35,980 bases of DNA, taken from the NCBI GenBank assembly GCA_020073305.1, contig JAIQFK010000038.1:1-35980 (forward strand), given 5' to 3'. The stretch comes from Terriglobia bacterium (GTDB lineage: Bacteria; Acidobacteriota; Terriglobia; Bryobacterales; Bryobacteraceae). Position 1 is the stretch's first letter. Every line of letters begins with the position of its first letter. The notes under the pieces were generated by a model, which worked only from the letters and a program-made list of their open reading frames with translations, had not been told where the DNA came from and searched no databases. The translations under genes and the position numbers were made by a program. Positions 7,156 to 28,755 of this stretch are shown here, one piece after another.

Positions 7156-8073
7156 ATGGCTCAAGGAACGACCGGGACAAATCAAATGAGCCACGTGAAT
7201 CCAAGAGATCTTTATCGCTGGTGTAAAGTGCCGGCCGAAGAGCTGGCTCATCATCCCGGCTTACGGGTTCGCTTTTGCCTTGTGAAAGACTCGGAAGAGA
7301 TGGGGTCGCTCATGGCACGCGAGTTGGTTGCGGTCATCGAAGAGAACAACGCGCGGGGAAAACCGACCAGGGCCATCATCCCCTGCGGCCCGAAATGCTG
7401 GTATCAGCCGTTCACCGACCTGGTGAACTCAGGGAACCTGCCGCTACGAAATCTGACGGTCTTTCACATGGACGAATGCCTGGATTGGCAGGGCCGCCCG
7501 TTGGCCCGGAATCACCCTTACAATTTCCGGACGTTCATGGAGAAGTATTTCTATGGCGGCATCAAATCCGAACTGGCGGTTCCAGAGGAGCAAAGGTACT
7601 GGCTGCTTCCCAATACCATGGACCGCGTGCGCGCCGCGCTGGACACTGCACCAGTGGATATTACGCTCGGCGGCTGGGGGCAGGATGGCCACGTCGCTTA
7701 TAACCAAGCCCGACGGCACCCTTTCAGTCCAATAACGGTGGAAGACGTAGCGAACTCCACAATCCGCATCCAGGACAACAATCTGGACACCATCCTGGCG
7801 CTCGGACAGCGCACCTTCGGCGCCGCCTATCAGTTCGTCCCGCCGATGTCGGTGACTTTGGGAGTCTCCGAATGCCTCTCGGCCAAACGCGTACGCGTCT
7901 ACAGCGACACCGGGGCCTGGAAGCAGACCGCTCTGCGCGTCGCCTTGTTTTCTGAGCCGACGCCGGACTACCCGATGACCCTTCTGCAGCGGCACCCCGA
8001 CGCCATGATCACAGCCACTATGGAAACCGCCCGTCATCCCATCGCGGAGAATCCTGACTGGGAGTTGTTCTAG
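7156..8073 (+). CDS. Glucosamine-6-phosphate deaminase (NagB)-like protein
   Basis: A 305-residue cytoplasmic protein of the NagB/6-phosphogluconolactonase fold. NagB isomerises and deaminates glucosamine-6-phosphate to fructose-6-phosphate and ammonia. Visible family motifs are FHMDECLDW (compare MDEY, with the Asp that acts on the C2 proton), NHPYNFRTFMEKYF, and GGWGQDGHVAYNQ (compare GGxGxDGHIAFNEP), which keeps the Asp and His of the ring-opening group but has Gln where NagB has Glu. Thus the fold is clear and the exact reaction is not. An internal ATG at 7186 is an alternative start; neither has a strong ribosome-binding site. The gene lies between the NIPSNAP-like and kinase genes. Confidence 0.75.
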   Translation: MAQGTTGTNQMSHVNPRDLYRWCKVPAEELAHHPGLRVRFCLVKDSEEMGSLMARELVAVIEENNARGKPTRAIIPCGPKCWYQPFTDLVNSGNLPLRNLTVFHMDECLDWQGRPLARNHPYNFRTFMEKYFYGGIKSELAVPEEQRYWLLPNTMDRVRAALDTAPVDITLGGWGQDGHVAYNQARRHPFSPITVEDVANSTIRIQDNNLDTILALGQRTFGAAYQFVPPMSVTLGVSECLSAKRVRVYSDTGAWKQTALRVALFSEPTPDYPMTLLQRHPDAMITATMETARHPIAENPDWELF

Positions 8074-8089: not shown

Positions 8090-9190
8090 ATGCCGCAGCG
8101 CTGCCTTCGATTCAATTCACACTCCCCCTACCGCCGGCTGATCGGGGTCGGGGGAATTGGCGCCGGCATCTTCTTCGCGCTCGAGGGCAATCACACCCTC
8201 GGCCGCAATGAAAGCCGGCCAGCCCGGCTGCTGGACATCCGCGACTACTGCAAGCTTCACATCATTGCGCACTACGTCGCGGTGCTGCTGGGTGCGGATC
8301 CGTCCGGCTCGCCCTTTCACTTAGTTCCCATCGGAAAGGTGGGTGACGATGAACCCGGACACCGCATGTTGAAGGAAATGTCGGGCGTGGGCATGGATAT
8401 CGGGCGCGTTGAGATCGTCAGAAATCGGCCTACGCTCTTCAGCGTCTGCTTCCAATACCCGAGCGGAGAGGGAGGGAACCTCACGACCACGCAGTCGGCG
8501 GCGTCCGAGTTGACCGCGGAGAATGTTGCACCAGCCTCACCCTTGTTCGCGGTAGAAGGGAATCGGAGCATGGTCTTGGCGGCGCCAGAGGTTTCACTCG
8601 AGGCGCGCTACCATCTGCTCGAGCTTGCCACTGCCAGCCGGGCATTTCGCGCTGCGGCTCTCACGTCCTCGGAGATGGTGACGGCGCTCCGGCAAGGCTT
8701 CTTTTCGCTCGTCGATCTGCTCTCCATCAACGAGGATGAGGCAGGAGCCCTGACGGGCCGCGTGTTCGATCCGGCCGATCCGTACCCTTTCTTGACGGCA
8801 TGTAGCGATGTCTTGATCGCTTGCCAACCCTCCATGCGGATCGTCGTCAGCGCAGGAAAGCACGGCGCCTTTGCCTTTGCCAAGGGTCTTTGGGATCACT
8901 GCCCCGCAGCGCCGGCCTCGGTGGTTGGAACGGCGGGGGCAGGAGATGCGTTGCTGGGCGCGATTTTGTCCGGCCTTGCTGTCGGAATGCCGCTGATCTG
9001 TCCGGGTTCCCCGCGCAAGTCCATCAATGAACGCCCGCTAGGAAGTGCGCTCGACTTCGCTGTTCTGCTGGCCAGCTTTACCATCACATCTCCGCATACC
9101 ATTCACCCGCACGCGAATCTGGAGACGCTTCTCCAGTTTGCCGGAGAGCTAGGCGTCTCGTTCTCCGGCGCACTCAGCCGTCACTTCTGA
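8090..9190 (+). CDS. PfkB family carbohydrate kinase
   Basis: A 366-residue ribokinase/PfkB-type kinase, expected to phosphorylate a sugar or sugar acid using ATP. The N-terminal region has LIGVGGIGAGIFFALEG and PIGKVGDDEPGHRML, matching the usual glycine-rich start and substrate-binding block. The C-terminal signature is GTAGAGDALLGAILSGL (about 283-299), where GAGD supplies the anion hole and the catalytic Asp; the first residue is Gly instead of the usual Asp. An unusual insert (CPGSPRKSINERPLG) follows. A GGAGGT 5 nt before ATG supports the start. Gap to the NagB-like gene is 16 nt. Substrate not determinable; 2-keto-3-deoxy sugar acid or aminosugar are candidates from context. Confidence 0.85.
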   Translation: MPQRCLRFNSHSPYRRLIGVGGIGAGIFFALEGNHTLGRNESRPARLLDIRDYCKLHIIAHYVAVLLGADPSGSPFHLVPIGKVGDDEPGHRMLKEMSGVGMDIGRVEIVRNRPTLFSVCFQYPSGEGGNLTTTQSAASELTAENVAPASPLFAVEGNRSMVLAAPEVSLEARYHLLELATASRAFRAAALTSSEMVTALRQGFFSLVDLLSINEDEAGALTGRVFDPADPYPFLTACSDVLIACQPSMRIVVSAGKHGAFAFAKGLWDHCPAAPASVVGTAGAGDALLGAILSGLAVGMPLICPGSPRKSINERPLGSALDFAVLLASFTITSPHTIHPHANLETLLQFAGELGVSFSGALSRHF

Positions 9191-9232: not shown

Positions 9233-10351
9233 TCAGACTGTGCCTGAAGGCGAAACCCGTGGGAGCGCCAATGCAGGTGCGGGAGCCGCGGACTCCCGGC
9301 CTGCAGGGGCCCGCATTTCGCGGAACAAGTGGAATGTCGAGCGCATGACCAGTTGTGGAGCCAGGAAGTGGGCTTTTGGAAGTTGGGTTCCGTGGAGAAA
9401 GTGATCTACCGCCAGACGCATGGCCAATTCACCCTGAACGTATGGCCGGCTGTAGACACAAGCAGAGATCGTACCCTTTTCAAAATACGGCCGCATTTCG
9501 CCGAACAGATCCGTAGTGACCAGCTTCAGCCGGCCGGCCAATCCCGTGGCGCCAATGGCACGACACACCGGGAGGCAGTTAGCCGTGTTTACGTAAACGC
9601 CAGCCAGCGCCTTGTGCCGCTCCAGCAGGGCAAAGCACTTCTGAAAGGCTTCATCCTCGTCGTCGTGTGCCTCGATCACCTCAGCCACAACCCCTTCGCT
9701 GCAGAAGCGCGGATAGGCCCCAAGAAAACTTTCCGTCTTCCTGCGATGGTCCTCAATGTGCAACATGCCGGTGACGATGGCCACCTGTGAACCGACAGGG
9801 ACCATGCCGCCCAACAGTTCCGCAGCGACCCGTCCGCTGGCTTCCGCATCCACACAGACTGCCGTAGAGCGCCGGCTGGCAGGTGCGTCCGTGTCCACAC
9901 AGATGACGCGGATCCCGCGACGCTCAGCCTCGTTGATCACCGGAGTCAACTCCTGAGGGCTGCCCGGTGTCAGTATCAACGCGCCTGGCCCCGCGTGAAT
10001 CAGTTCCTCAATCGTCTCTACCTCGGCCTCACCAAGACGCTCAGTCCTACGCCAGATGGTCTCGACCCCCGATAGTTCAGCGCGTTGAGCTTCCGCCGCT
10101 ATACCTTGGCAAAGCTGATCGAAATAGTAATGGATTTCACGCGGGATGCAGATGCCGATTCGAATTGGAGTGCGGCGCACGGACAGCGCCCGGGCCGCCA
10201 TGTTGGGCCGGTAACCCACACTCTTGGCGATCTCCAGGATTCGCAGGCGGGTACTTTCACGGATGCCCTTCCGGCCGTGGAGAGCACGATCGACCGTCCC
10301 AATGGTTACATTCGCCAACCTGGCAATCTCGGGAATTCCGATCCTCTTCAT
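9233..10351 (-). CDS. LacI family transcriptional regulator
   Basis: A 372-residue DNA-binding regulator. The N-terminal helix-turn-helix and hinge are clear: IPEIARLANVTIGTVDRAL, then GIRESTRLRILEIAKSVGYR and AARALSV. The rest (about 60-340) is a periplasmic-binding-protein fold for a small sugar-like effector, with GALILTPGSPQEL and VICVDTDAP. The last 30 residues are Ala/Pro-rich and low in conservation. It is divergent from the TonB receptor gene with 156 nt between, and an operator-like palindrome lies in that gap (10462-10473), with a close copy at 6585-6596 upstream of the kinase run. It is therefore the likely local repressor of both runs; the inducing ligand is unknown. Confidence 0.9.
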   Translation of the reverse strand: MKRIGIPEIARLANVTIGTVDRALHGRKGIRESTRLRILEIAKSVGYRPNMAARALSVRRTPIRIGICIPREIHYYFDQLCQGIAAEAQRAELSGVETIWRRTERLGEAEVETIEELIHAGPGALILTPGSPQELTPVINEAERRGIRVICVDTDAPASRRSTAVCVDAEASGRVAAELLGGMVPVGSQVAIVTGMLHIEDHRRKTESFLGAYPRFCSEGVVAEVIEAHDDEDEAFQKCFALLERHKALAGVYVNTANCLPVCRAIGATGLAGRLKLVTTDLFGEMRPYFEKGTISACVYSRPYVQGELAMRLAVDHFLHGTQLPKAHFLAPQLVMRSTFHLFREMRAPAGRESAAPAPALALPRVSPSGTV

Positions 10352-10507: not shown

Positions 10508-13500
10508 ATGCAACTTTGCGGTTCGAAGTCCATTTTGCTGTTCAGCGTGCTGGGGGTCATGGCTTCATCCAGCCTGCGGGCTGACGTAACAGGAAGTATT
10601 CTCGGTGTGGTCCGCGACCCTACGCAGGCCGTGGTTGCCAATGCGCGGATTGTTGCCACCAACGTGGAAACCAATCTCAGCAGGGAGACGATATCTGCCG
10701 CCGACGGATCCTACCGCATCCTCGCTCTCCCCCCAGGAACATATAAAGTCACGGGCACTGCGTCCGGATTCCAGCAGTACATCACCACCGACATCGATGT
10801 GAAAGTGAACGACCAGTTGCGCATCGACATCCTCCTCCAGGTTGGCAGTGTGCAACAAGAAGTCAATGTCACCGCCAACGCGGTCCAGGTGGAAACCGCC
10901 AGTACGCAGCTCGGCGACGTGATTGAGTCGAAGAAGATGCTGGCTCTGCCGCTGAACGGCCGCAGTTACATTGATCTGCTGGGGCTGCAAGCCGGCGTGG
11001 CGCCGGATTCTGCCAACACCATCGGCGGAGACCGGCAGGTCTCCGGCGGTCTCAACGCGGGCAACATCTCGGTGAATGGCCAACGCGAGACCGGGAACGC
11101 CTTCCTGGTTAATGGCGGCGACGTGAGCGAGGGCCGCAACCTGGGCGCGGGCTTGATTCCGAATCTCGATTCCATTGAGGAATTTCGCCTCATCACGAAT
11201 AGCTTCGATGCAGAGTACGGGAAGTTCAGCGGCGCGGTGATGAACGCCATCACCAAATCCGGAGCCAACGCCATTCACGGCGATGTCTTCGAGTTCATGC
11301 GCAATGACAAGTTCGATGCCCGTAATTTCTTTACCGCCAGCAAGTCTGAATTGCGGCGCAACCAGTTCGGTTACGCCATTGGCGGACCCTTCTGGAAGAA
11401 CAAACTTTTCTGGTTCACGGACTATCAGGGCACGAGAGAGGTTCGAGGCGCCGAAACCGGCATTGTGCAAGTAATCCCCGCCGCTCAGCGTCAAGGCCAG
11501 TTCGACCCAACAACGCTGACAGGCACTATCGATGGCCCCTACTGGGCGCAAGTGCTCTCGCAACGCCTGGGGTATGGTGTGACAAACGGAGAACCGTACA
11601 GCTTCGCCGGCTGCACGCTGACATCCGATTGTGTTTTTCCCGGCGGCGTGATCCCGCAGCGAGCCTGGTCGAAGCCGGCTATTAACATCTTGCCTTACAT
11701 TCCGCTTGGAAATGTTGACCCTGCAGCAGGCGTCTACTCAGACAATAGTCAAAAGAACAGGGTGCAGGACGACAAGGCCGGGCAGCGCGTCGACTTCATC
11801 AACCAAGCGACGGGTAACTGGTCGTGGTATTACCACTTCGACGACTCGAACGTATTCAACGCGATTCCCGCTGCCAGCGTCGCGGGCTTCCCGTCTTTCA
11901 CGCCCACGCGTGCCCAGCAGATTGTGATGAGCAACACCAAGACGCTCGGGCCAGGCGCGGTAAACGAGGCGCGTGTGAGCTTCTTCCGCAGCTCGACTAT
12001 TAAGGACCAGCCGAAAGGCAGCTTCGCAAAGCTGTCCGACCTTGGTTTCCTCACGGGGATAGGCACGCTGGGCATTAACCCTTCCGGGCCGTCGGGCTTC
12101 CCGCAGACCGTGCCACCGCTGTATTTCAACAACTTTAGCACCGGCGTGCCGACGCTGACCACGAAGCAGCCCAACAACACCTGGATGCTGACCGAGGGCC
12201 TTTCCAAGGTCGCGGGCAATCATACGCTTAAGTTCGGAGGCGAATTCCGGTACCTGCAAATCAACGAGCGGAATGTCGCATCGCCCAACGGCACCTTCAA
12301 CTTCGACGGAAGTGTGACCGGGGTCGATGCCGCTGATTACGAGCTCGGCGCAGTGTCCAGCGTCGGCTCTGCGTTTCAGCAGTACAGCATGCAGTTTCTG
12401 GACTCGCGGACGCGCTATGGTGGCGCGTATGCGCAGGACGCCTGGAAGGTGAAAGCAAATCTCACTTTGAACCTCGGTCTACGCTGGGAAGTCAGCATGC
12501 CCTGGTATGACACCCAAGGCAAGATCGAAACCATCGTACCCGGTGAGCAATCCAAACAATTCCCCACCGCTCCCCTGGGCTGGGTGGTGCCTGGAGATCC
12601 CGGCATCCCGTCCACTCTGGCTCCGACGCACTACAACAACTGGGCTCCGCGCCTGGGCCTCGCCTACGCACCTGGCTTCAATGACGGCATTCTGCGAAAG
12701 ATCTTCGGAGGCCCCGGAAAAACCAGTATCCGTGCGTCGTTCGGCATCTATTACACGTCCATCGAGGATCTGAACCTGTTCTACGAAGTCGGCGACCCGC
12801 CGTTCGGCAATAACTGGCAGAGCCCCAATGGCGTCCTGTTCGAGGAGCCGTACCGCACTCGCACAGACGGGGCCTCGCAAGGGCAGAAATTCCCGTTTAT
12901 TTTTCCGACTCCGGGCAGCCCGGCGAACGCGACCCTGAATTTCGCCCAATTTCTGCCGATCTCTTACGCACCGGGCTATGACATTCACAATCGCATGCCC
13001 TACGCCGAGCATTATAATTTCTCGATCCAGCGCGAATTGTCCAAGTCCACCGTACTGACGCTCGCCTATGTCGGCACCCAGGGCCATAAGCTGATCTCGC
13101 AGACCGATGCCAACCCGGGCAATACGGCTTTTTGCCTGCAACTCAACGCCAGGGGCGCCGTTGATTTGAATACCGGTCTTTCCAACCCGGCCTGCGGCCC
13201 CGGAACAGAACAGGATACTTTTCAATTGCCGAACGGCACCAAAGTATACGGAACCAGAACCAGCCTTGGCCCCGCTTTTGGGGCCAACAACACCTACACG
13301 CGCAACAGCGCGAACTCGAACTACAACTCATTCCAAGCGTCGGTGGAGCGCAAAGCCTCGGACATGACGTTCCTGGCGGCCTACACGTTTGGCAAGGCGA
13401 TGGATGATGCCTCGACTTTCGGCGATCTGATGAATTTCACGAATTACCGGCTGAGTCGATCACTGTCGTCTTTCGATGTCACTCACAACTTCGTTGCCAG

Positions 13501-14017
13501 CTACAACTGGGCTTTGCCGTTCGACCGGGCTTTCAGCGGCCTGCCGAAGCGCCTGACCCAAGGTTGGAACATCACCGGAATCACACGCTTCTCGACGGGC
13601 TTTCCGATCCATATCCGCCAAAGTCGCGGTGATTTGTCACTCACCGGCAGTAGCGCAACCGACGAGCCCAACCTGGTGGGACCGGTGGTCATCCAGAATC
13701 CACGTCGGGCCGGACCCAACGGCGCGAACACCTATTTCCTGCCGGACGCCTTCACTTCTGACCTCCTGGGACAGTTTGGGGATGCCAACAGGCAGTTTTT
13801 CCATGGTCCCGGCATCATTAACACCGATTTTGGGATGTCGAAGCGAATTTCGATTAGGGAATCCATGGCCGTCGAGGTCCGTGGAGAATTCTTCAACATC
13901 TTCAACCACGCGCAATTCAACAATCCGAGCGGCAACTTCAGCAGCAGCTTGTTTGGAGTCGTCACGGGCGCGCGCGATCCGCGCATTGGGCAGGTCAGCG
14001 CGAAGTTTTACTGGTAA
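10508..14017 (+). CDS. TonB-dependent receptor, Oar-like with carboxypeptidase-regulatory domain
   Basis: A 1,169-residue outer-membrane protein. Residues 1-25 are a signal peptide. Residues 26-115 form a carboxypeptidase-regulatory-like beta-sandwich (VTGSILGVVRDPTQAVVANA, then DGSYRILALPPGTYKV). The plug domain follows (LPLNGRSYIDLLGLQAGVAP, then FRLITNSFDAEYGKFSGAVM) and then a beta-barrel ending ...RIGQVSAKFYW with the terminal aromatic residue of outer-membrane proteins. Such Acidobacteriota receptors are thought to import oligosaccharides or peptides using TonB energy. AGGAGG (10496-10501) precedes the ATG. Its stop overlaps the next start (TAATG), so it should be translated together with the DapA-like gene. 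Confidence 0.9.
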   Translation: MQLCGSKSILLFSVLGVMASSSLRADVTGSILGVVRDPTQAVVANARIVATNVETNLSRETISAADGSYRILALPPGTYKVTGTASGFQQYITTDIDVKVNDQLRIDILLQVGSVQQEVNVTANAVQVETASTQLGDVIESKKMLALPLNGRSYIDLLGLQAGVAPDSANTIGGDRQVSGGLNAGNISVNGQRETGNAFLVNGGDVSEGRNLGAGLIPNLDSIEEFRLITNSFDAEYGKFSGAVMNAITKSGANAIHGDVFEFMRNDKFDARNFFTASKSELRRNQFGYAIGGPFWKNKLFWFTDYQGTREVRGAETGIVQVIPAAQRQGQFDPTTLTGTIDGPYWAQVLSQRLGYGVTNGEPYSFAGCTLTSDCVFPGGVIPQRAWSKPAINILPYIPLGNVDPAAGVYSDNSQKNRVQDDKAGQRVDFINQATGNWSWYYHFDDSNVFNAIPAASVAGFPSFTPTRAQQIVMSNTKTLGPGAVNEARVSFFRSSTIKDQPKGSFAKLSDLGFLTGIGTLGINPSGPSGFPQTVPPLYFNNFSTGVPTLTTKQPNNTWMLTEGLSKVAGNHTLKFGGEFRYLQINERNVASPNGTFNFDGSVTGVDAADYELGAVSSVGSAFQQYSMQFLDSRTRYGGAYAQDAWKVKANLTLNLGLRWEVSMPWYDTQGKIETIVPGEQSKQFPTAPLGWVVPGDPGIPSTLAPTHYNNWAPRLGLAYAPGFNDGILRKIFGGPGKTSIRASFGIYYTSIEDLNLFYEVGDPPFGNNWQSPNGVLFEEPYRTRTDGASQGQKFPFIFPTPGSPANATLNFAQFLPISYAPGYDIHNRMPYAEHYNFSIQRELSKSTVLTLAYVGTQGHKLISQTDANPGNTAFCLQLNARGAVDLNTGLSNPACGPGTEQDTFQLPNGTKVYGTRTSLGPAFGANNTYTRNSANSNYNSFQASVERKASDMTFLAAYTFGKAMDDASTFGDLMNFTNYRLSRSLSSFDVTHNFVASYNWALPFDRAFSGLPKRLTQGWNITGITRFSTGFPIHIRQSRGDLSLTGSSATDEPNLVGPVVIQNPRRAGPNGANTYFLPDAFTSDLLGQFGDANRQFFHGPGIINTDFGMSKRISIRESMAVEVRGEFFNIFNHAQFNNPSGNFSSSLFGVVTGARDPRIGQVSAKFYW

Positions 14018-15021
14018 TGACTGGCCCGTCTAACGAGGTCCAACCCGAAGGTCCGTGGGTTTCCAGCAGACGCAGTTTTCTCGCGGCGTTGGCCGGAGCG
14101 GCGGGGGCGGCATTCGCGCGCCCCTCGACCGATAAGCCGCTCCGTGGCATCTTCGTCATCGTCGCTACGCCATATAAAGAGTCGAAGGCCGTTGACTACG
14201 AAGACCTCGCGCACGAAGTCGAGTGGCTGAACCGATGTGGAGCGCACGGCATCGTATGGCCGCAAATGGCGAGTGATTACAACAGGCTCACGATGGAGGA
14301 GCGGTTGCGCGGCTTTGAGGTGATCGCCGATGCTGCAAAAGGCAATCGATCGGCGGTGGTTTTTGGCGTGCAGGGTCCAGACACCCATGCTGCCTTGAAT
14401 TACCTGCAGCATGCCGAGAAGTTGTCGCCCGATGCACTAATTGCCATTCCGCCCGAGAAAGCCAGTTCACTCGAAGAATATCGGGCATATTACGGTGCGC
14501 TGGCGCATGCCACCGAGCGGCCCATCTTCATCCAGGACACCGGCCCCCACCATCCTTTGCCCATGCCGGCGCCGTTCCTGATTGAGCTGGCGAGCGCACA
14601 TCCCAACCTCGGTTACGTGAAGGAGGAGCTCAGCCCGGTCCTCGAGCGGATGAGGGAGCTGCAGGCAAAGCGGCCGCCGATGAAGCGGGTTTTCAGCGGG
14701 GATGGAGGACGGGGCATGCTGGCGGAGATGAGCCAGGGTTCGGATGGCACCATGCCCGGGGCGGGGTTCACGGATGTATACGTGCAGATCTGGGATGCCT
14801 GGCAAGCCGGCGATCGCAAGAAGGCCAGAGACATATTCATGCACCTGCTCCCGCTCATTAATCTGGATGAACTGGTGGAACAGGGATACCAACAGGTGCT
14901 TTTCCGCCGTGGAGTATTCAAGACATCGGTCTCGCGAATTCCACGGATCAGCCTGTCGCCAGAAGTGAAGGCGGAGATGGATGCCGCCTTCGAAGAATTG
15001 AAACCCTACCTGCGCGTCTGA
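14017..15021 (+). CDS. Tat-exported dihydrodipicolinate synthase/N-acetylneuraminate lyase family protein
   Basis: A 334-residue class I aldolase-fold protein. Residues 1-40 contain a twin-arginine signal (SSRRSFLAALAGAAGAAFA), unusual for a family that normally works in the cytoplasm. The TIM-barrel part keeps the Schiff-base lysine (GYVKEELSP, about Lys202) and LTMEERLRGFEVIADAAKG. However, the usual GTTGE segment reads PQMASDYNR, and the tyrosine of the YNxP motif is replaced (IFIQDTGPHH). Family members cleave or form 2-keto-3-deoxy acids. ATG overlaps the receptor's TAA by one base. Followed after 95 nt by a SelA-like PLP enzyme, which fits a dehydratase-aldolase pair for a sugar acid. 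Confidence 0.75.
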   Translation: MTGPSNEVQPEGPWVSSRRSFLAALAGAAGAAFARPSTDKPLRGIFVIVATPYKESKAVDYEDLAHEVEWLNRCGAHGIVWPQMASDYNRLTMEERLRGFEVIADAAKGNRSAVVFGVQGPDTHAALNYLQHAEKLSPDALIAIPPEKASSLEEYRAYYGALAHATERPIFIQDTGPHHPLPMPAPFLIELASAHPNLGYVKEELSPVLERMRELQAKRPPMKRVFSGDGGRGMLAEMSQGSDGTMPGAGFTDVYVQIWDAWQAGDRKKARDIFMHLLPLINLDELVEQGYQQVLFRRGVFKTSVSRIPRISLSPEVKAEMDAAFEELKPYLRV

Positions 15022-15116
15022 AGACAGCGGACAGAACACAAGCAAGCATGGCAGGGAAGCCGAGTGGCGATAACCAGGCGCTTCTTGCCAGGCCCGATTC
15101 ACACGAGAGGTGACTC

Positions 15117-16364
15117 ATGGAGAGACTTACTTCAACTGATCGGCGTGCGTTCATGAAGTGGATGAGCGCGCTTCCCTTACTTGGGTACATAACAACCCAG
15201 GGCCTTTTCGAAAAGGCCTTCGGGGCGGCGAAACGAAATCGCTACAACAATATCTACACGCGGATCGGTGTCAAACCGGTGATTAACGCACGGGGCCCGT
15301 GGACGTACATCAGCGGCACTCTCGAACTGCCTGAGGTGAAGGCGGCCAAGCAGCAAGCCGCTGAGTACTTCGTCAACATTTGGGAGCTGCATCGCGCCGT
15401 CGGCCAGCGGCTCGCTCAGCTTTCTGGGGCGGAGGCGGGACTCGTCACCTCGGGAGCGGCGGGCGCCATGGCCGTGGCAACCGCAGCCTGTATCGCCGGC
15501 ACCGACCCGCGCAAGATCTGGCAGCTTCCCGACACTTCAGGGTTGAAGAACGAGGTCGTGATGTTGGGTGGACGGAGTTTGTTCGACAGTGCAATCCGAG
15601 GTGCAGGTGGGAAGCTCGTGCTGGCGAACACACACGACGAATTGCAGGCAGCCATCACCGAGAAGACCGTCATGGTTTACACCATGGCTCACGGGGAGCG
15701 GATGGAGAAGGCGTTGTCTATTACCAAAAAAGCGGGAGTGCCGATGTTGGTTGATTGGGCTGACCGCGTTCCGCCGATGGAGAATTTTATGCTGCCCGCC
15801 AAAATGGGAGTCGAGTTGTACACTTTTAGCGGCGGCAAGGGGCTGTGCGGGCCCCAGTGCACGGGTCTTCTCTTGGGCCGAAAAGACCTCATCGAAGCGG
15901 CACTTGCGAATTCTTCTCCTTGGGAGGGAGCCGTGTGTCGGCCCATGAAGGTGGGCAAAGAAGAGATCATGGGGCTGCTCGCGGCGGTGGAAGCCTGGAA
16001 GAAGATGGATTCGGGGGCTCTGGACCGCGAATGGGGCAAACGCGTAAGCCGCATCGCGCAGGTAGTCGAGACCGTGCCCGGTGTGACCACGGAGATTCAA
16101 ACTGCCTATGCGGCGCCCTCGTTATTCGTGAAATGGGACGAAGCGGCGTTCAAGCTGACGGTGGCGGACTGCGCCAAGAGATTGCTGGATGGCGAGCCGC
16201 GAATCGAGGTGGCGACCCGGCACAACCCCAGCGCGGTCCCCGGAGCGGAAGAGGGGGATCCCAAGAGGACGCACGGCGCAAGGCCGGACCGCATACAGAT
16301 CGTCTCGACGACTCTGCAACGGGCGAGGAGTTGCTCGTCGCCCGGCGGCTGCGCGAAGTCCTGA
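15117..16364 (+). CDS. SelA-like PLP-dependent enzyme with export signal, frameshifted near its 3' end
   Basis: A 415-residue reading frame of the SelA/D-glucosaminate-6-phosphate ammonia-lyase (DgaE-like) fold. It starts with a Tat-like leader (DRRAFMKWMSALPLLGY). The enzyme part begins YTRIGVKPVINARGPWTY and has GLVTSGAAGAMAVATAACIAG (about 108-128) for cofactor binding and FSGGKGLCGPQ with the PLP lysine at about 241. Family members dehydrate or deaminate amino acids and aminosugar acids, or make selenocysteinyl-tRNA; an exported protein would not do the last. A GAGAGGTGA precedes ATG. The final 14 residues come from the wrong frame (see 16318-16387). It lies between the DapA-like and exo-glucosaminidase genes. 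Confidence 0.8.
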   Translation: MERLTSTDRRAFMKWMSALPLLGYITTQGLFEKAFGAAKRNRYNNIYTRIGVKPVINARGPWTYISGTLELPEVKAAKQQAAEYFVNIWELHRAVGQRLAQLSGAEAGLVTSGAAGAMAVATAACIAGTDPRKIWQLPDTSGLKNEVVMLGGRSLFDSAIRGAGGKLVLANTHDELQAAITEKTVMVYTMAHGERMEKALSITKKAGVPMLVDWADRVPPMENFMLPAKMGVELYTFSGGKGLCGPQCTGLLLGRKDLIEAALANSSPWEGAVCRPMKVGKEEIMGLLAAVEAWKKMDSGALDREWGKRVSRIAQVVETVPGVTTEIQTAYAAPSLFVKWDEAAFKLTVADCAKRLLDGEPRIEVATRHNPSAVPGAEEGDPKRTHGARPDRIQIVSTTLQRARSCSSPGGCAKS

Positions 16365-16387
16365 ATGAGGCCAGGAAAGCGGCGTAG
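16318..16387 (+). other. Apparent one-base deletion; displaced 3' end of the SelA-like gene
   Basis: The family's C-terminus is expected after IQIVSTTLQ. In the annotated frame the sequence then turns into RARSCSSPGG and stops at 16364. One base further on, the other frame reads GEELLVARRLREVLNEARKA and stops at 16387. Inserting a C at about 16320 would restore TTLQPGEELLVARRLRE, a natural continuation. This is either a real mutation or a sequencing error. Confidence 0.75.
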
Positions 16388-16470: not shown

Positions 16471-19173
16471 ATGTCAGGCGTGCGAAGTTCGCTACTGCTG
16501 CTGTTTCTCATCATCAACCTGGTTGCTTCCAACGCCCTCTACGCAACTCGCCCGGACGCGTCCAGTTCCCCCGAAATCCTCCTTCGCGAGCGTTGGGCTA
16601 TTCAGTCCTCGTCGGACGTTTCCGACACCGGCGGAGTGATTTCGACTCCCGGCTACAACTCTCGCGATTGGTACAAGGCCACGCTCCCCTCCACCGTGCT
16701 CAGTGCTCTGGTGCGAGACGGTGCCTACCTCGACCCGTACATCGGAATGAATCTGCGAGCAATCCCCGGCGGCGCTTACCCGCCGTTCACTGACTTCGCA
16801 AATTCTCCCATGCCGCCGGACAGCCCATTCCGGCACTCGTGGTGGTACCGCTGTGAGTTCACCGTGCCGGCGGGGTACAAGGGGAAGACCCTGTGGTTGG
16901 ATTTCGATGGCATCAACTTCCGCGCCAACGTGTGGATGAACGGTCGCCGGATCGCATCATCCGACAAGATGGCCGGGACCTGGAGGCGGTTCGAGTTTGA
17001 CGTGACGGCAGCGGCACGCCCGGGCGAGAGCAACGCGCTGGCGGTTGAGGTGTTTCCGCCGCAAGCGCACGACCTGGCAATCACGCTGGTCGACTGGGCG
17101 CCCATGCCGCCGGACAAAGAGATGGGCATCTGGCGCGATGTTCGCCTTACGGCCACCGGCCCGGTGGCCTTACGCTACCCCGCTGTCTTTACGCGGCTCA
17201 ACCTGCCTTCCGCCGAACTCACGGTGCGGGCGGAGCTGAAGAATGCCGCGGATCATCCTATTGAAGGCGTGCTGAAGGGCGAGATCGAAAACATCGAGTT
17301 CTCGCAGCCCGTGCGGCTTGGTGCACACGAGACACACGTGGTGCATTTCACACCAAAGGAGTTCGCGCAACTGAAGATGGCGAACCCCCGTTTGTGGTGG
17401 CCGGCTGCCGTGGGTCCGCAAAATCAGTACCCGCTGGAGCTACAGTTCGAAATCAATGGTGAGATTTCCGATTCGAGCCGAACGCGTTTCGGCATTCGCC
17501 AAGTGACCTCCGAGGTGGATGAAAAAGGGCACCGCGTGTTTCAAGTCAATGGAAAGAACATTTTGATCCGCGGAGCCGGTTACAGTTTTGACATGCTGCT
17601 GCGCTCCACGCCGGAGCGCCAGGAGGCGGAGCTGCGATATGTTCGCGATCTGCATCTGAACGCGATCCGGATGGAAGGCAAGCTAGAGGACGAGTACTTT
17701 CTGGAGCTTTGCGATGAAATGGGCATCCTGGTGATGCCGGGCTGGTGTTGCTGCGACCAATGGGAGAAGTGGGACGAGTGGGACGCCGAAAACGAGTCGG
17801 TCGCTGCCGATTCCCTGCGGGATCAGATCCGCCGCCTCGAGCGTCATCCCTCCATATTCACGTGGTTAAACGGCAGCGATTTTCCGCCTCCGCCCAAAAT
17901 CGAGAAGATGTATCTGCACATCTTCCAGGAGTCTGAGTGGCCCAATCCCACGGTGTCTTCGGCTTCGAATAAGGCGACGACCGTCGGCGCCAGCGGCGTG
18001 AAAATGACCGGCCCGTACGAGTATGTGGCCCCGTCATTTTGGTATCTCGACACTCACCTCGGTGGGGCTCACGGCTTCAACACCGAAACCAGCCCCGGAC
18101 CCGCCATACCGCCGATCGAGAGCCTGCGCCGCATGCTGCCGGAAGATCATCTCTGGCCGATCGATTCGGTTTGGGAATACCACGCGGGCGGCATGTCCGG
18201 CACGCTCAGTATTTTCACCGAAGCACTCAATCAGCGCTATGGCGCGGCGAACTCGGTCGAAGATTACGCCCGCAAGGCCCAGGTACAGGCCTACGAAGGC
18301 CATCGCGCCATGATGGAAGCCTATGGCCGCAATAAGTACACGTCCACCGGAATCATTCAGTGGATGCTGAACAATGCCTGGCCCGGCATGATCTGGCACC
18401 TGTATGACTGGTATCTGCGGCTCGGCGGCTCGTACTTCGGTGTGAAGCTCGCCTGTGAGCCGCTGCACGTCCAGTATTCATACGACGACCGGTCGATCGT
18501 GGTGGTGAACTCGTACTATCAGTCTTTTCCGCGGCTTAAGGTCACAGCGAAGGTATACGACCTGGACATGCGTGAGAAATTCGCGAAGGAAGCCACGCTC
18601 GATGTGACTCCCGACAGCAGCACGCGCGTGTTCACGTTGCCGGAGATTGCCGGTGTCAGTTCCACCTATTTTGTGGACTTGAAGCTGGAGTCCTCCGCAA
18701 AGTTGGCTAGCCGCAACTTCTACTGGCTCTCCACGAAACCGGAGACGATTGACTGGGACCGATCCAATCGGGACCCTTCCGGCGAGTACCAAATCTCAAC
18801 GTGGACGCCCACCAAGACGTTCGCCGACTACACCGCGCTGAACAGTTTGCCGGCGGTTGATTTGGAAGCGACAGCCCAGTCTCGGCAGGATGGGCCGCAG
18901 AGTTCCACGACCGTTACCCTTCACAACCCGAGCCGGACGCTGGCGTTTGCCGTGCGATTGAAAGTGAACCGGGCGCCTCTGGGGTATGTCAGCCGCGAGG
19001 CTCCAACCGACTACGAGGTATTGCCGGTTCTCTGGCAGGACAACTACTTCCCGCTATTGCCGGGGGAAACAAGGCAGGTTACAGCCACGTACAATGCTAA
19101 GGATCTGGGTCACTCCGCGGCGTTTGTTGAGGTCGAAGGCTGGAACGTGAAGCGGAAAGTGGTCCAGCCGTAG
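16471..19173 (+). CDS. GH2 family exo-beta-D-glucosaminidase-like enzyme, exported
   Basis: A 900-residue glycoside hydrolase with a signal peptide (SLLLLFLIINLVASNALYA). Domain order is sugar-binding, immunoglobulin-like, TIM barrel, then two C-terminal beta domains. The catalytic motifs fit the exo-glucosaminidase subfamily, in which the acid/base is Asp rather than the usual Glu: NGSDFPPP with Asp at about 470, and HGFNTETSPGPAIPP with the nucleophile Glu at about 539. This subfamily releases glucosamine from the non-reducing end of chito-oligosaccharides. CAGGAG at 16456-16461, 9 nt before ATG, decides the start over an in-frame ATG at 16393. It follows the SelA-like gene and precedes an ornithine cyclodeaminase-like gene. 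Some relatives act on mannosides. Confidence 0.8.
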   Translation: MSGVRSSLLLLFLIINLVASNALYATRPDASSSPEILLRERWAIQSSSDVSDTGGVISTPGYNSRDWYKATLPSTVLSALVRDGAYLDPYIGMNLRAIPGGAYPPFTDFANSPMPPDSPFRHSWWYRCEFTVPAGYKGKTLWLDFDGINFRANVWMNGRRIASSDKMAGTWRRFEFDVTAAARPGESNALAVEVFPPQAHDLAITLVDWAPMPPDKEMGIWRDVRLTATGPVALRYPAVFTRLNLPSAELTVRAELKNAADHPIEGVLKGEIENIEFSQPVRLGAHETHVVHFTPKEFAQLKMANPRLWWPAAVGPQNQYPLELQFEINGEISDSSRTRFGIRQVTSEVDEKGHRVFQVNGKNILIRGAGYSFDMLLRSTPERQEAELRYVRDLHLNAIRMEGKLEDEYFLELCDEMGILVMPGWCCCDQWEKWDEWDAENESVAADSLRDQIRRLERHPSIFTWLNGSDFPPPPKIEKMYLHIFQESEWPNPTVSSASNKATTVGASGVKMTGPYEYVAPSFWYLDTHLGGAHGFNTETSPGPAIPPIESLRRMLPEDHLWPIDSVWEYHAGGMSGTLSIFTEALNQRYGAANSVEDYARKAQVQAYEGHRAMMEAYGRNKYTSTGIIQWMLNNAWPGMIWHLYDWYLRLGGSYFGVKLACEPLHVQYSYDDRSIVVVNSYYQSFPRLKVTAKVYDLDMREKFAKEATLDVTPDSSTRVFTLPEIAGVSSTYFVDLKLESSAKLASRNFYWLSTKPETIDWDRSNRDPSGEYQISTWTPTKTFADYTALNSLPAVDLEATAQSRQDGPQSSTTVTLHNPSRTLAFAVRLKVNRAPLGYVSREAPTDYEVLPVLWQDNYFPLLPGETRQVTATYNAKDLGHSAAFVEVEGWNVKRKVVQP

Positions 19174-19241: not shown

Positions 19242-20216
19242 ATGACAGAAAGCATGCTTTACCTTTCACGCGAAGCAGTCGAAAACCTGGGCTTGAAGAT
19301 GGCCGAGATTGTGGACGCGGTCGAGGCCGCATTCAAAGACAAAGGACAGGGCAAGGTGGAGATGCCGCCCAAGCCGGGTATTCACACCCGGCCAGATGCT
19401 TTCATCCATGCCATGCCGGCTTACCTCAAGTCGAGCGAGGCTGCCGGAATGAAGTGGATCTCGGGCTACCCGCAGAATATGGAGCGGGGTCTGCCTTATA
19501 TATCAGGCTTGATGATCTTGAACGACCCCGACACTGGATTCCCGTTATCGGTGATGGATGCGACGTGGCTCACGGCCATGAGGACAGGCGCGGCGACGGC
19601 CGTGGCCGCCAAATACTTGGCTCGCCCCGATTCGAAAACGGTGGCGATCCTGGCGTGCGGCGTCCAAGGCCGATCCAATCTGCAGGCGCTGCAGGTGGTT
19701 CTCAAAAGTCTCGACAAGGTTTATGCCTACGACATCCGTGATGAAGCCGCGAGCCGCTTCCGTGAAGAATGCCGTTCATCACGCAACATCGCATGCACGG
19801 TCTGCAGCTCGCCGGAACAGGCGGTCCGCTCCGCGGACATTGTTGTGACATCCGGACCCATTCTCCGAAATCCCTCACCGGTGATCGTCCCGGATTGGCT
19901 CAAACCAGGGGTCTTCGTTTGTCCCCTCGACTTCGACTCGTATATGACGCCCGCCGCTTTTCACGCGGCCGACCTGTTTTGCACCGACGATATCAATCAG
20001 CTCCGCTACTATCAGAAAGCCGGGTACTTCGCAGACATCCCCGCCCAGCCGGTTGACCTGGGTGCTATCGTGGCCGCGGGCGTACCGCGCCGAAAGTCGG
20101 CCCGCGATCGGATCATTTCTGTGAATTTAGGGTTGGCGCTTGAGGACGTCGCGACCGCGCAGTTGATCTACCGCCGGGCCCTGGCTGAGGGCGTGGGCGT
20201 TCGATTGCCATTATGA
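19242..20216 (+). CDS. Ornithine cyclodeaminase/mu-crystallin family protein
   Basis: A 324-residue NAD(P)-binding protein. Conserved points are GMKWISGYPQN (compare KWxxxFPxN with the substrate-binding Lys), AMRTGAATAVAAKYLA with the substrate-binding Arg, and the Rossmann start ILACGVQGRSNLQAL. The usual VGAD-type catalytic block is replaced by DFDSYMTPAAFHAAD, so it is unlikely to be a true ornithine cyclodeaminase and may be an amino-acid or imine reductase/dehydrogenase. No signal peptide is seen. It follows the GH2 gene by 68 nt at the end of the forward run, and may act on an amino acid or imine made by this locus. The family is certain and the substrate unknown. Confidence 0.8.
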   Translation: MTESMLYLSREAVENLGLKMAEIVDAVEAAFKDKGQGKVEMPPKPGIHTRPDAFIHAMPAYLKSSEAAGMKWISGYPQNMERGLPYISGLMILNDPDTGFPLSVMDATWLTAMRTGAATAVAAKYLARPDSKTVAILACGVQGRSNLQALQVVLKSLDKVYAYDIRDEAASRFREECRSSRNIACTVCSSPEQAVRSADIVVTSGPILRNPSPVIVPDWLKPGVFVCPLDFDSYMTPAAFHAADLFCTDDINQLRYYQKAGYFADIPAQPVDLGAIVAAGVPRRKSARDRIISVNLGLALEDVATAQLIYRRALAEGVGVRLPL

Positions 20217-27937: not shown

Positions 27938-28363
27938 CTAGAAGAGGTCTGAGTCGAGACCCGCGATGAACTGAATTCCGGGAACAATCTGGCCCGCCAG
28001 TCCGCGATCGTTCGTCAAGAAGAGATCGACTCCCGCTTCCGCCGCGCACGCCAGGTGGATCGCATCGGCGGGGGAAACACGGAGGCCCGCGCGAATCTTT
28101 GCATAGTGGTTCGCGGCATCGCTCGTGAAAGGCAGCACTTGAATGAACGGCGGCCGGAACGCCTCGCGAATGCGATCGGCCATTTCAAGTGCTCCTTTCT
28201 TGTAGGGACCAACCAGTGTTTCTGCAACCGCGAAGGCGCTGGTGCAGAGCGAATCCTTTCGCTGCTCCATGCGTGTGAGAATGTGCCGGATGCGATCTGC
28301 ATGAACCGGATGCTCCTCGAACCAATAAACGAAGAGCATCGTGTCCCAGTAGATCAAACTCAT
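27938..28363 (-). CDS. VapC-like PIN domain ribonuclease toxin
   Basis: A 141-residue PIN protein, presumably cutting RNA. It begins with the PIN motif SLIYWDTMLFVYWFEEHP (first acidic residue), has an internal Glu in AVAETLVGP, and SPADAIHLACAAEAGVDLFL with the third acidic group, then TNDRGLAG. Length and residue pattern match VapC toxins. It overlaps the preceding gene by 4 nt (ATGA), the arrangement of a toxin following its antitoxin. The upstream partner is not one of the usual AbrB, Phd or ribbon-helix-helix antitoxins. It lies 34 nt upstream of the ABC-F gene start on the same strand. Confidence 0.85.
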   Translation of the reverse strand: MSLIYWDTMLFVYWFEEHPVHADRIRHILTRMEQRKDSLCTSAFAVAETLVGPYKKGALEMADRIREAFRPPFIQVLPFTSDAANHYAKIRAGLRVSPADAIHLACAAEAGVDLFLTNDRGLAGQIVPGIQFIAGLDSDLF

Positions 28364-28755
28364 CGACCGATCTTGTCCTGGATGTCAGAAAGCTGCTGTC
28401 GCTCCCCCTTGATGAAATTTTCCCATTCGCCGCCTTCCTTGAAGATGTCTTTTGCAATGCCGCGGAGTTGCCACAGCGGATTCGGTTCGCTCGCACCCGC
28501 GGAATCGATTTCGAATGTGAACTTGACCGTAGTGCTCATGCCCGACGGCGGCCCGGTTTCATCCTTTAGCCGTAGATGATTTTCTGATTGGAAACGATCG
28601 GCTCTCAAGGCGGTGCACACCCACGCAATTCGATTCTTCAGGCCCAGTGCCTTTTGAACGTCGCCAGCCGTTACCGACACAGTCTTTTCACCCCGCGCTT
28701 GTGCAGGCCGGACGTACCTCTCGAGGACGTACTGCCGGATCGTGTCAGCATTCAT
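28360..28755 (-). CDS. Unknown protein, putative antitoxin partner of the PIN toxin
   Basis: A 131-residue protein of no recognised family. The first half (IRQYVLERYVRPAQARG, then VSVTAGDVQKALGLKNR) looks like a winged-helix or helix-turn-helix segment followed by a conserved Ala/Arg block. The middle has TTVKFTFEID and the C-terminus is charged and helical (GEWENFIKGERQQLSDIQDK). Position first in an overlapping pair with a VapC-like toxin, and direct repeats in its own promoter (28766-28793), suggest an autoregulating antitoxin. Other possibilities are a DNA-repair or restriction-associated accessory protein. Start at 28755 may give a leaderless message. Confidence 0.65.
   Translation of the reverse strand: MNADTIRQYVLERYVRPAQARGEKTVSVTAGDVQKALGLKNRIAWVCTALRADRFQSENHLRLKDETGPPSGMSTTVKFTFEIDSAGASEPNPLWQLRGIAKDIFKEGGEWENFIKGERQQLSDIQDKIGR

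Follow-up and report, generated by a model that had tools for sequence, protein, structure and literature searches.

The window, by which we mean the whole stretch of 35,980 nucleotides that was analysed (Terriglobia bacterium, phylum Acidobacteriota, contig JAIQFK010000038.1), contains two neighbouring genes that are the subject of this article. One encodes a DapA-like protein of 334 amino acids (aa), the other a SelA-like pyridoxal phosphate (PLP) enzyme of 415 aa, and both products begin with what looks like a leader for the twin-arginine translocation (Tat) system. The central part of the locus is listed below, where RR denotes the twin arginine, GH2 glycoside hydrolase family 2 and ORF an open reading frame.

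10508 to 14017, plus strand: TonB-dependent outer-membrane receptor with a CarboxypepD_reg domain (OMP_b-brl_4, 619.6 bits)
14017 to 15021, plus strand: DapA-like protein of DHDPS/NAL fold with a leader and the L-2-keto-3-deoxyarabonate (L-KDA) dehydratase signature Q173/K202/E204
14017 to 14133, plus strand: putative leader of Tat type at the start of the DapA-like protein, with RR at residues 18-19 and, in the structure model, a helix of low confidence at 18-32
15117 to 16364, plus strand: SelA/DgaE-like PLP enzyme with a leader (PLP lysine K241, D213, R275)
15117 to 15230, plus strand: putative leader of Tat type at the start of the SelA-like protein, with RR at residues 9-10
16317 to 16387, plus strand: apparent frameshift, with the conserved C-terminal tail of the homologues in another frame (ORF 15845-16387)
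16471 to 19173, plus strand: CsxA-type GH2 exo-beta-D-glucosaminidase (PF18368 Ig_GlcNase and a match to 2vzs)

The two ORFs are flanked by a 1169-aa receptor ORF on the 5' side and a 926-aa GH2 protein on the 3' side. The end of the receptor gene overlaps the start of the DapA-like gene by one base, and 95 bases separate the DapA-like from the SelA-like gene on the same strand. Besides OMP_b-brl_4, the receptor ORF matches CarboxypepD_reg and a TonB barrel in Pfam. Residues 68-923 of the GH2 protein align with the solved exo-beta-D-glucosaminidase 2vzs (E 3.3e-172), which is nearly the full length; its start was set at ATG 16471 and its N-terminus was judged by eye to be of the Sec type. The ORFs, the Pfam matches and the 2vzs alignment confirm what an earlier sequence-only reading of this DNA had said, namely that both genes lie between a TonB-type receptor and a CsxA-like GH2 enzyme. 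That reading had also extended the SelA-like feature to 16387, which belongs to another reading frame; the ORF itself ends at 16364, its frame being shifted over the last residues relative to the homologues L067 and L068 (16317-16387).

The leaders are SSRRSFLAALAGAAGAAFA in the DapA-like protein and DRRAFMKWMSALPLLGYI in the SelA-like protein. In both, about 40 residues precede the start of the alignment to solved relatives and represent an N-terminal extension: residue 45 of the SelA-like protein is where the alignment to solved DgaE begins, at DgaE residue 4, and the alignment to solved L-KDA dehydratase begins at residues 40-41 of the DapA-like protein. RR is invariant in the aligned proteins (9/9 DapA-like and 13/13 SelA-like, the window's included). 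We further counted proteins in which a hydrophobic stretch free of D, E and K comes after RR. This holds for 55 of 64 SelA-like and 48 of 64 DapA-like proteins versus 178 of 1305 other called genes of the same loci, which corresponds to 6.3 and 5.5 times the background. ORF starts were called mechanically, and most of the nine SelA-like failures are over-long starts, one (L183) having NRS for NRR; the 16 DapA-like failures include nine with an RR-x-C variant and one that lacks a leader. TatC is encoded in the window's genome. Judging from these sequences, the leaders of both proteins look Tat-like and common to their homologues, in agreement with the earlier reading, and both proteins would be exported.

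The SelA-like enzyme does resemble DgaE, as had been claimed. It scores 144 bits with TIGR01437 (the DgaE family, cut-off 385.3), and among solved structures it is related to 8t7j and DgaE and, weakly, to SelA; PF03841 gives 25.5 bits and NF047797 gives 135.4 bits, below its cut-off of 600. The PLP lysine (K241), an aspartate (D213) with the role that it has in fold-type I PLP enzymes, and one arginine are kept in 63 of 63 SelA-like proteins, the window's among them. None of the 63 has a histidine in the columns of His-162 or His-163 of DgaE/D-glucosaminate-6-phosphate ammonia-lyase (DGL), and any histidine in the span 159-166 occurs in three, including the window's. Its single loop histidine (H192) falls at His-162 and a glycine at His-163 in a pairwise alignment to DgaE, the alignment of this loop being uncertain by one or two residues. 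The three columns of phosphate-binding arginines hold an arginine in 13, 10 and 1 of the 63 proteins versus three of three DgaE-family sequences each, the columns having been set by counting along the Priestia sequence, with the DGL sequence covered to residue 299; the window's protein has S, A and T there. Because these arginines are lost, an unphosphorylated substrate, which the sequence-only reading had also supposed, would fit the enzyme. As to the histidine, the available part of the DGL report (PMC9529869) says that the mutant H163A releases an enamine, names RidA as an enzyme that breaks down such enamines, and gives free enamines of that type a lifetime of only seconds in water. It prints the PLP lysine of DGL as Lys-217; counted from His-163, this lysine is residue 213.

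Several variants of the SelA-like family were seen. A subtype with a C-terminal extra domain occurs in L085 (9398-11032), L071, L069, L081 and L084 (13922-15604); no Pfam name was found for this domain in L085. A relative on a Sinorhizobium plasmid (L214) has a similar tail, is devoid of a leader and adjoins phosphoenolpyruvate mutase genes. Other relatives without a leader are the SelA-like protein of Haladaptatus and the DapA-like protein of Chloroflexi (L144). The tree gave no single clade of leader-bearing SelA-like proteins; the Sinorhizobium relative groups with a branch in which several members have the extra domain, and since it sits there, the family may have lost or acquired leaders on more than one occasion. 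Another SelA-like gene of the window's genome is immediately followed by a gene for a PIG-L deacetylase with an RR leader (L072, 10701-11630).

The DapA-like protein matches PF00701 (DHDPS, 62.4 bits). Its best solved sequence match is L-KDA dehydratase (7c0c), and so are the nine best structural matches of its AlphaFold model (pLDDT 88.2; 24% identity). The fold alone is indecisive, because DHDPS structures follow with similar TM-scores. According to the accessible text of PMC9795676, the Azospirillum L-KDA dehydratase has Gln143 in place of the aldolase tyrosine, forms its Schiff base through Lys171 and takes the C3 proton with Glu173, a feature reported in that text for no other DHDPS/NAL enzyme. 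The matching residues are kept in 39 of 40 (Q173), 40 of 40 (K202) and 40 of 40 (E204) DapA-like sequences. The catalytic tyrosine of DHDPS/NAL enzymes is absent from the DapA-like protein, Q173 standing there instead, and the GxxG motif is absent from the DapA-like proteins, where the region reads VWPQ or VWPA. These active-site residues made us reject the idea, put forward in the earlier reading, that the protein is an aldolase; the signature is that of a dehydratase. In our opinion, the DapA-like protein probably works like an L-KDA dehydratase but is not to be filed as one, since Q173/K202/E204 are kept and Glu200, the second base of the Azospirillum enzyme, is not.

The gene neighbourhoods of 53 SelA-like loci were compared, comprising the window, six others of its genome and 46 from other genomes. 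In a 297-genome phylum sample 31 genomes had a match, and 22 of them (the window's own genome included) supplied loci, as did all 15 other matching genomes of a 120-genome order sample; those fetched are the best-scoring places and not all matches. Of 71 DapA-like loci, 62 were left after duplicates and loci without a match at E 1e-20 had been dropped, many with short flanks. L165 and L216 are apparently one Granulicella locus, and L165 alone was counted. Within 3 kb, RidA is encoded at 16 of 53 SelA-like versus 1 of 62 DapA-like loci, an amidohydrolase at 18 versus none, and an RraA-like protein at 10 versus none. There are 20 RidA ORFs within 6 kb of SelA-like genes, 14 with an RR motif and five more with a strongly hydrophobic N-terminus. 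Within the clade of the window's SelA-like protein, L186, L191 and L192 have RidA next to the SelA-like gene, and both RidA and an amidohydrolase are close in L188. Three RidA domains in one chain with a hydrophobic N-terminus are encoded beside the SelA-like genes of L192 (10546-11793) and L186 (7732-8934), and another contig of the window's genome encodes a RidA with a hydrophobic N-terminus that is 59% identical to the L192 protein (L201, G000:C9:50202-51371).

The DapA-like genes keep different company. PQQ (pyrroloquinoline quinone) dehydrogenases are found within 3 kb at 16 of the 62 loci (the family was checked on one member) and enolase-superfamily proteins within 6 kb at five. Neighbours of these two kinds fit a supply of 2-keto-3-deoxy acids to the DapA-like enzymes. 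Four of the enolase-superfamily proteins, in L092, L096, L099 and L105, have RR leaders, which suggests a wider exported sugar-acid route; the fifth, in Chloroflexi L144, has no RR, and the DapA-like gene there has no room for a leader. A DapA-like gene of this family, which is mainly acidobacterial, also occurs in L122 (CALQBJ020000081.1), a contig under the title Bifidobacterium breve that is probably from a mislabelled metagenome-assembled genome.

A single run of genes surrounds the SelA-like genes on the Granulicella tundricola plasmid pACIX902 (NC_015065.1, L216, 1783-13110). The order is CarboxypepD_reg receptor-like protein, RraA, SelA-like, RidA, SelA-like, amidohydrolase, lactonase and BBE oxidase, and six products (RraA, both SelA-like proteins, RidA, amidohydrolase and lactonase) have leader-like N-termini. 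Counterparts without RidA have the order amidohydrolase, DgaE, 2-keto-3-deoxy-6-phosphogluconate (KDGP) aldolase and lactonase on a Klebsiella plasmid, and amidohydrolase, DgaE, KDGP aldolase and kinase on a Priestia plasmid. Thus exported gene sets around the SelA-like enzyme would exist in some relatives, but the partners are RidA, the amidohydrolase and RraA-like proteins and not the DapA-like protein. The window does not match the Granulicella-type set (RidA and amidohydrolase beside the SelA-like gene) within 6 kb. It is an atypical member, with a DapA-like neighbour, a frameshifted SelA-like gene and no RidA or amidohydrolase nearby.

We propose that these genes belong to an extracytoplasmic, phosphate-free route for amino-sugar acids, joined in the window by an exported dehydratase and a CsxA-type exo-glucosaminidase behind one TonB receptor, and we give this a probability of about 0.48. 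The receptor would import oxidised or deacetylated chitin fragments, and the GH2 enzyme would trim them to glucosamine and D-glucosaminate (GlcN1A). A deacetylase would be unnecessary in the window, because a CsxA-type enzyme would act on chitosan. The SelA-like enzyme, having crossed the membrane via Tat folded with its PLP cofactor, would eliminate the C3 hydroxyl of unphosphorylated GlcN1A or a related 2-amino acid. Because it lacks the His-163 of DgaE, it should release the enamine, whose hydrolysis would yield a 2-keto-3-deoxy acid and ammonia, an exported RidA perhaps being at hand in many relatives. The DapA-fold enzyme would then dehydrate the 2-keto-3-deoxy acid without aldol cleavage; elsewhere it may take the product of an enolase-superfamily dehydratase. 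The direct basis is family resemblance, conserved leaders, active-site residues and gene neighbourhoods, and from these we infer export itself, what the enzymes act on, the release of an enamine, the sequence of the reactions and the membership of both enzymes in one chain. By analogy, the simplest account would be an exported deacetylase-lyase route for oxidised amino sugars, with a logic close to that of the Ong pathway described below.

A number of observations weigh against this proposal. Among the 53 SelA-like loci, the window alone has a DapA-like gene less than 6 kb from the SelA-like gene; these neighbourhood counts reject the idea of a conserved exported DapA-SelA pair. In a set of 63 DapA-like loci (flanks up to 10 kb per side, many shorter), L089 alone holds a SelA-like gene, 3.4 kb off and on the other strand, and among 22 more loci of the clade to which the window's SelA-like protein belongs (L067, L068 and 20 from other genomes), L197 alone gave a DapA-type match, a weak one of 45.9 bits. 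The SelA-like gene of the window, which is moreover frameshifted near its end, has neither a RidA nor an amidohydrolase gene within 6 kb. At 37 of the 53 SelA-like loci RidA is missing within 3 kb, a single family accounts for six (L162-L167) of the 18 loci that have RidA within 6 kb, and RidA need not be required, because enamines last only seconds in water. The RidA, amidohydrolase and RraA search profiles were built mostly from SelA-like loci (the PQQ profile from a DapA-like locus), hence the contrast in neighbours may be somewhat inflated. Relatives of the lactonase are near 5 and of the FAD (flavin adenine dinucleotide) oxidase near 2 of the 53 loci, and the BBE oxidase of pACIX902 has no visible leader. 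Regarding the dehydratase, Glu200 finds no counterpart at columns 230 and 229, which are without glutamate in the 40 DapA-like sequences. We know of no activity for any exported member. Finally, the curated Tat model TIGR01409 gives 12.9 bits with the DapA-like protein (cut-off 16.7), appears in two of nine DapA-like relatives at E up to 1, and is not found for the SelA-like protein up to E 1. With scores below the cut-off, we reject curated Tat models as proof of export.

It is possible, though in our view doubtful, that the two exported enzymes belong to different pathways and were brought together by gene shuffling. The SelA-like enzyme would then deaminate N-deacylated D-amino acids or similar compounds, and the DapA-like enzyme would handle 2-keto-3-deoxy acids that PQQ dehydrogenases and enolase-superfamily dehydratases form from aldonates. 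Each gene indeed has its own recurrent neighbours, which scarcely overlap, and the seven SelA-like genes in the window's genome (its own included) suggest several substrates. D-serine, D-threonine and GlcN1A are all substrates of OngC, which is another kind of PLP deaminase, as stated in the available part of PMC9537276. However, the genes of the window are consecutive on one strand, after the receptor and before the CsxA-type enzyme, and both enzyme types would converge on 2-keto-3-deoxy acids.

The pathway of the earlier reading, an exported DgaE-type dehydratase followed by an exported 2-keto-3-deoxygluconate (KDG) aldolase, has similarity to the DgaE family, the DHDPS fold and the CsxA-type neighbour on its side. 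We consider it improbable: the DapA-like protein has the Gln/Lys/Glu dehydratase signature without the catalytic tyrosine or GxxG, and the aldolase candidates beside SelA-like genes are RraA-like, not DapA-like. That the leaders are unused and both enzymes cytoplasmic is in our opinion very improbable. The TIGR01409 scores under the cut-off and the leaderless relatives (Haladaptatus and Sinorhizobium SelA-like, Chloroflexi DapA-like) would agree with it, but RR and the hydrophobic stretch are kept in divergent homologues far above the background, and the RidA partners have leaders as well.

Known systems resemble this route in part. DgaE/DGL shares the PLP family and the core residues with the SelA-like enzyme, and amidohydrolase partners (in Klebsiella, also a lactonase) recur; the SelA-like proteins differ by their leaders and by the lack of the phosphate arginines and of His-162/163, and the neighbour is a KDGP aldolase there, whereas RidA and RraA-like proteins are the neighbours here. 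The Azospirillum L-KDA dehydratase, a cytoplasmic enzyme, has the equivalents of the Gln/Lys/Glu residues of the DapA-like protein and differs in Glu200 and in the leader. CsxA (2vzs) is matched by the window's GH2 protein over nearly its full length, and we know of no link of CsxA to an exported lyase. The Ong oxidative chitin pathway of Pseudoalteromonas (OngB deacetylase, OngC deaminase, OngD RidA) deacetylates N-acetyl-D-glucosaminate (GlcNAc1A) and deaminates GlcN1A to KDG without prior phosphorylation, and it needs its RidA-family protein, whose role is unknown; but OngB and OngC are predicted to be cytoplasmic, and OngC belongs to fold-type III of the PLP enzymes and is not SelA-like (PMC9537276, available part). 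PvdN and PtaA of Pseudomonas are PLP enzymes exported through Tat folded with their cofactor; they differ in that they serve siderophore tailoring and catalyse different reactions, and the accessible portion of the publication mentions no RidA or deacetylase partner (PMC6206403).

In the pathways compared, amino-sugar-acid deamination and the later steps are cytoplasmic. A literature search, largely short of full text, returned no description of an exported SelA-like/RidA gene set. The chemistry is already known; what the literature found does not describe is the location, the loss of phosphate binding and of the proton donor, and the set of exported partners. If the proposal is true, it would change the view of how these bacteria gain carbon and nitrogen from chitin and chitosan, give RidA a role outside the cytoplasm and allow the question why DgaE retains His-163 to be tested directly. 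The route is open to testing because the operon is carried by a named Granulicella tundricola plasmid. More tentatively, Acidobacteriota may possess a complete extracytoplasmic phosphate-free pathway with oxidase, lactonase, deacetylase, SelA-type lyase, RidA and an aldolase or dehydratase, in which the lyase could have lost its proton donor since the enamine forms away from cytoplasmic PLP enzymes and exported RidA clears it.

Four further genes flank this central part, three on the 5' side of the receptor gene and one after the GH2 gene.

7156 to 8073, plus strand: distant relative of NagB (glucosamine-6-phosphate deaminase) without a leader, perhaps tied to the locus (TIGR00502, 59.5 bits, below the cut-off of 236.9)
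8090 to 9190, plus strand: PfkB-family sugar kinase, perhaps also tied to the locus (PF00294, 80.7 bits)
9233 to 10351, minus strand: LacI-type regulator, divergent from the receptor gene (Pfam LacI and Peripla_BP_4)
19242 to 20216, plus strand: ornithine cyclodeaminase/mu-crystallin family protein, putative member of the locus (PF02423, 232.8 bits)

Farther along the window, at 27938-28755, a PIN-domain gene (PF01850) overlaps a small upstream gene in a toxin-antitoxin-like arrangement.

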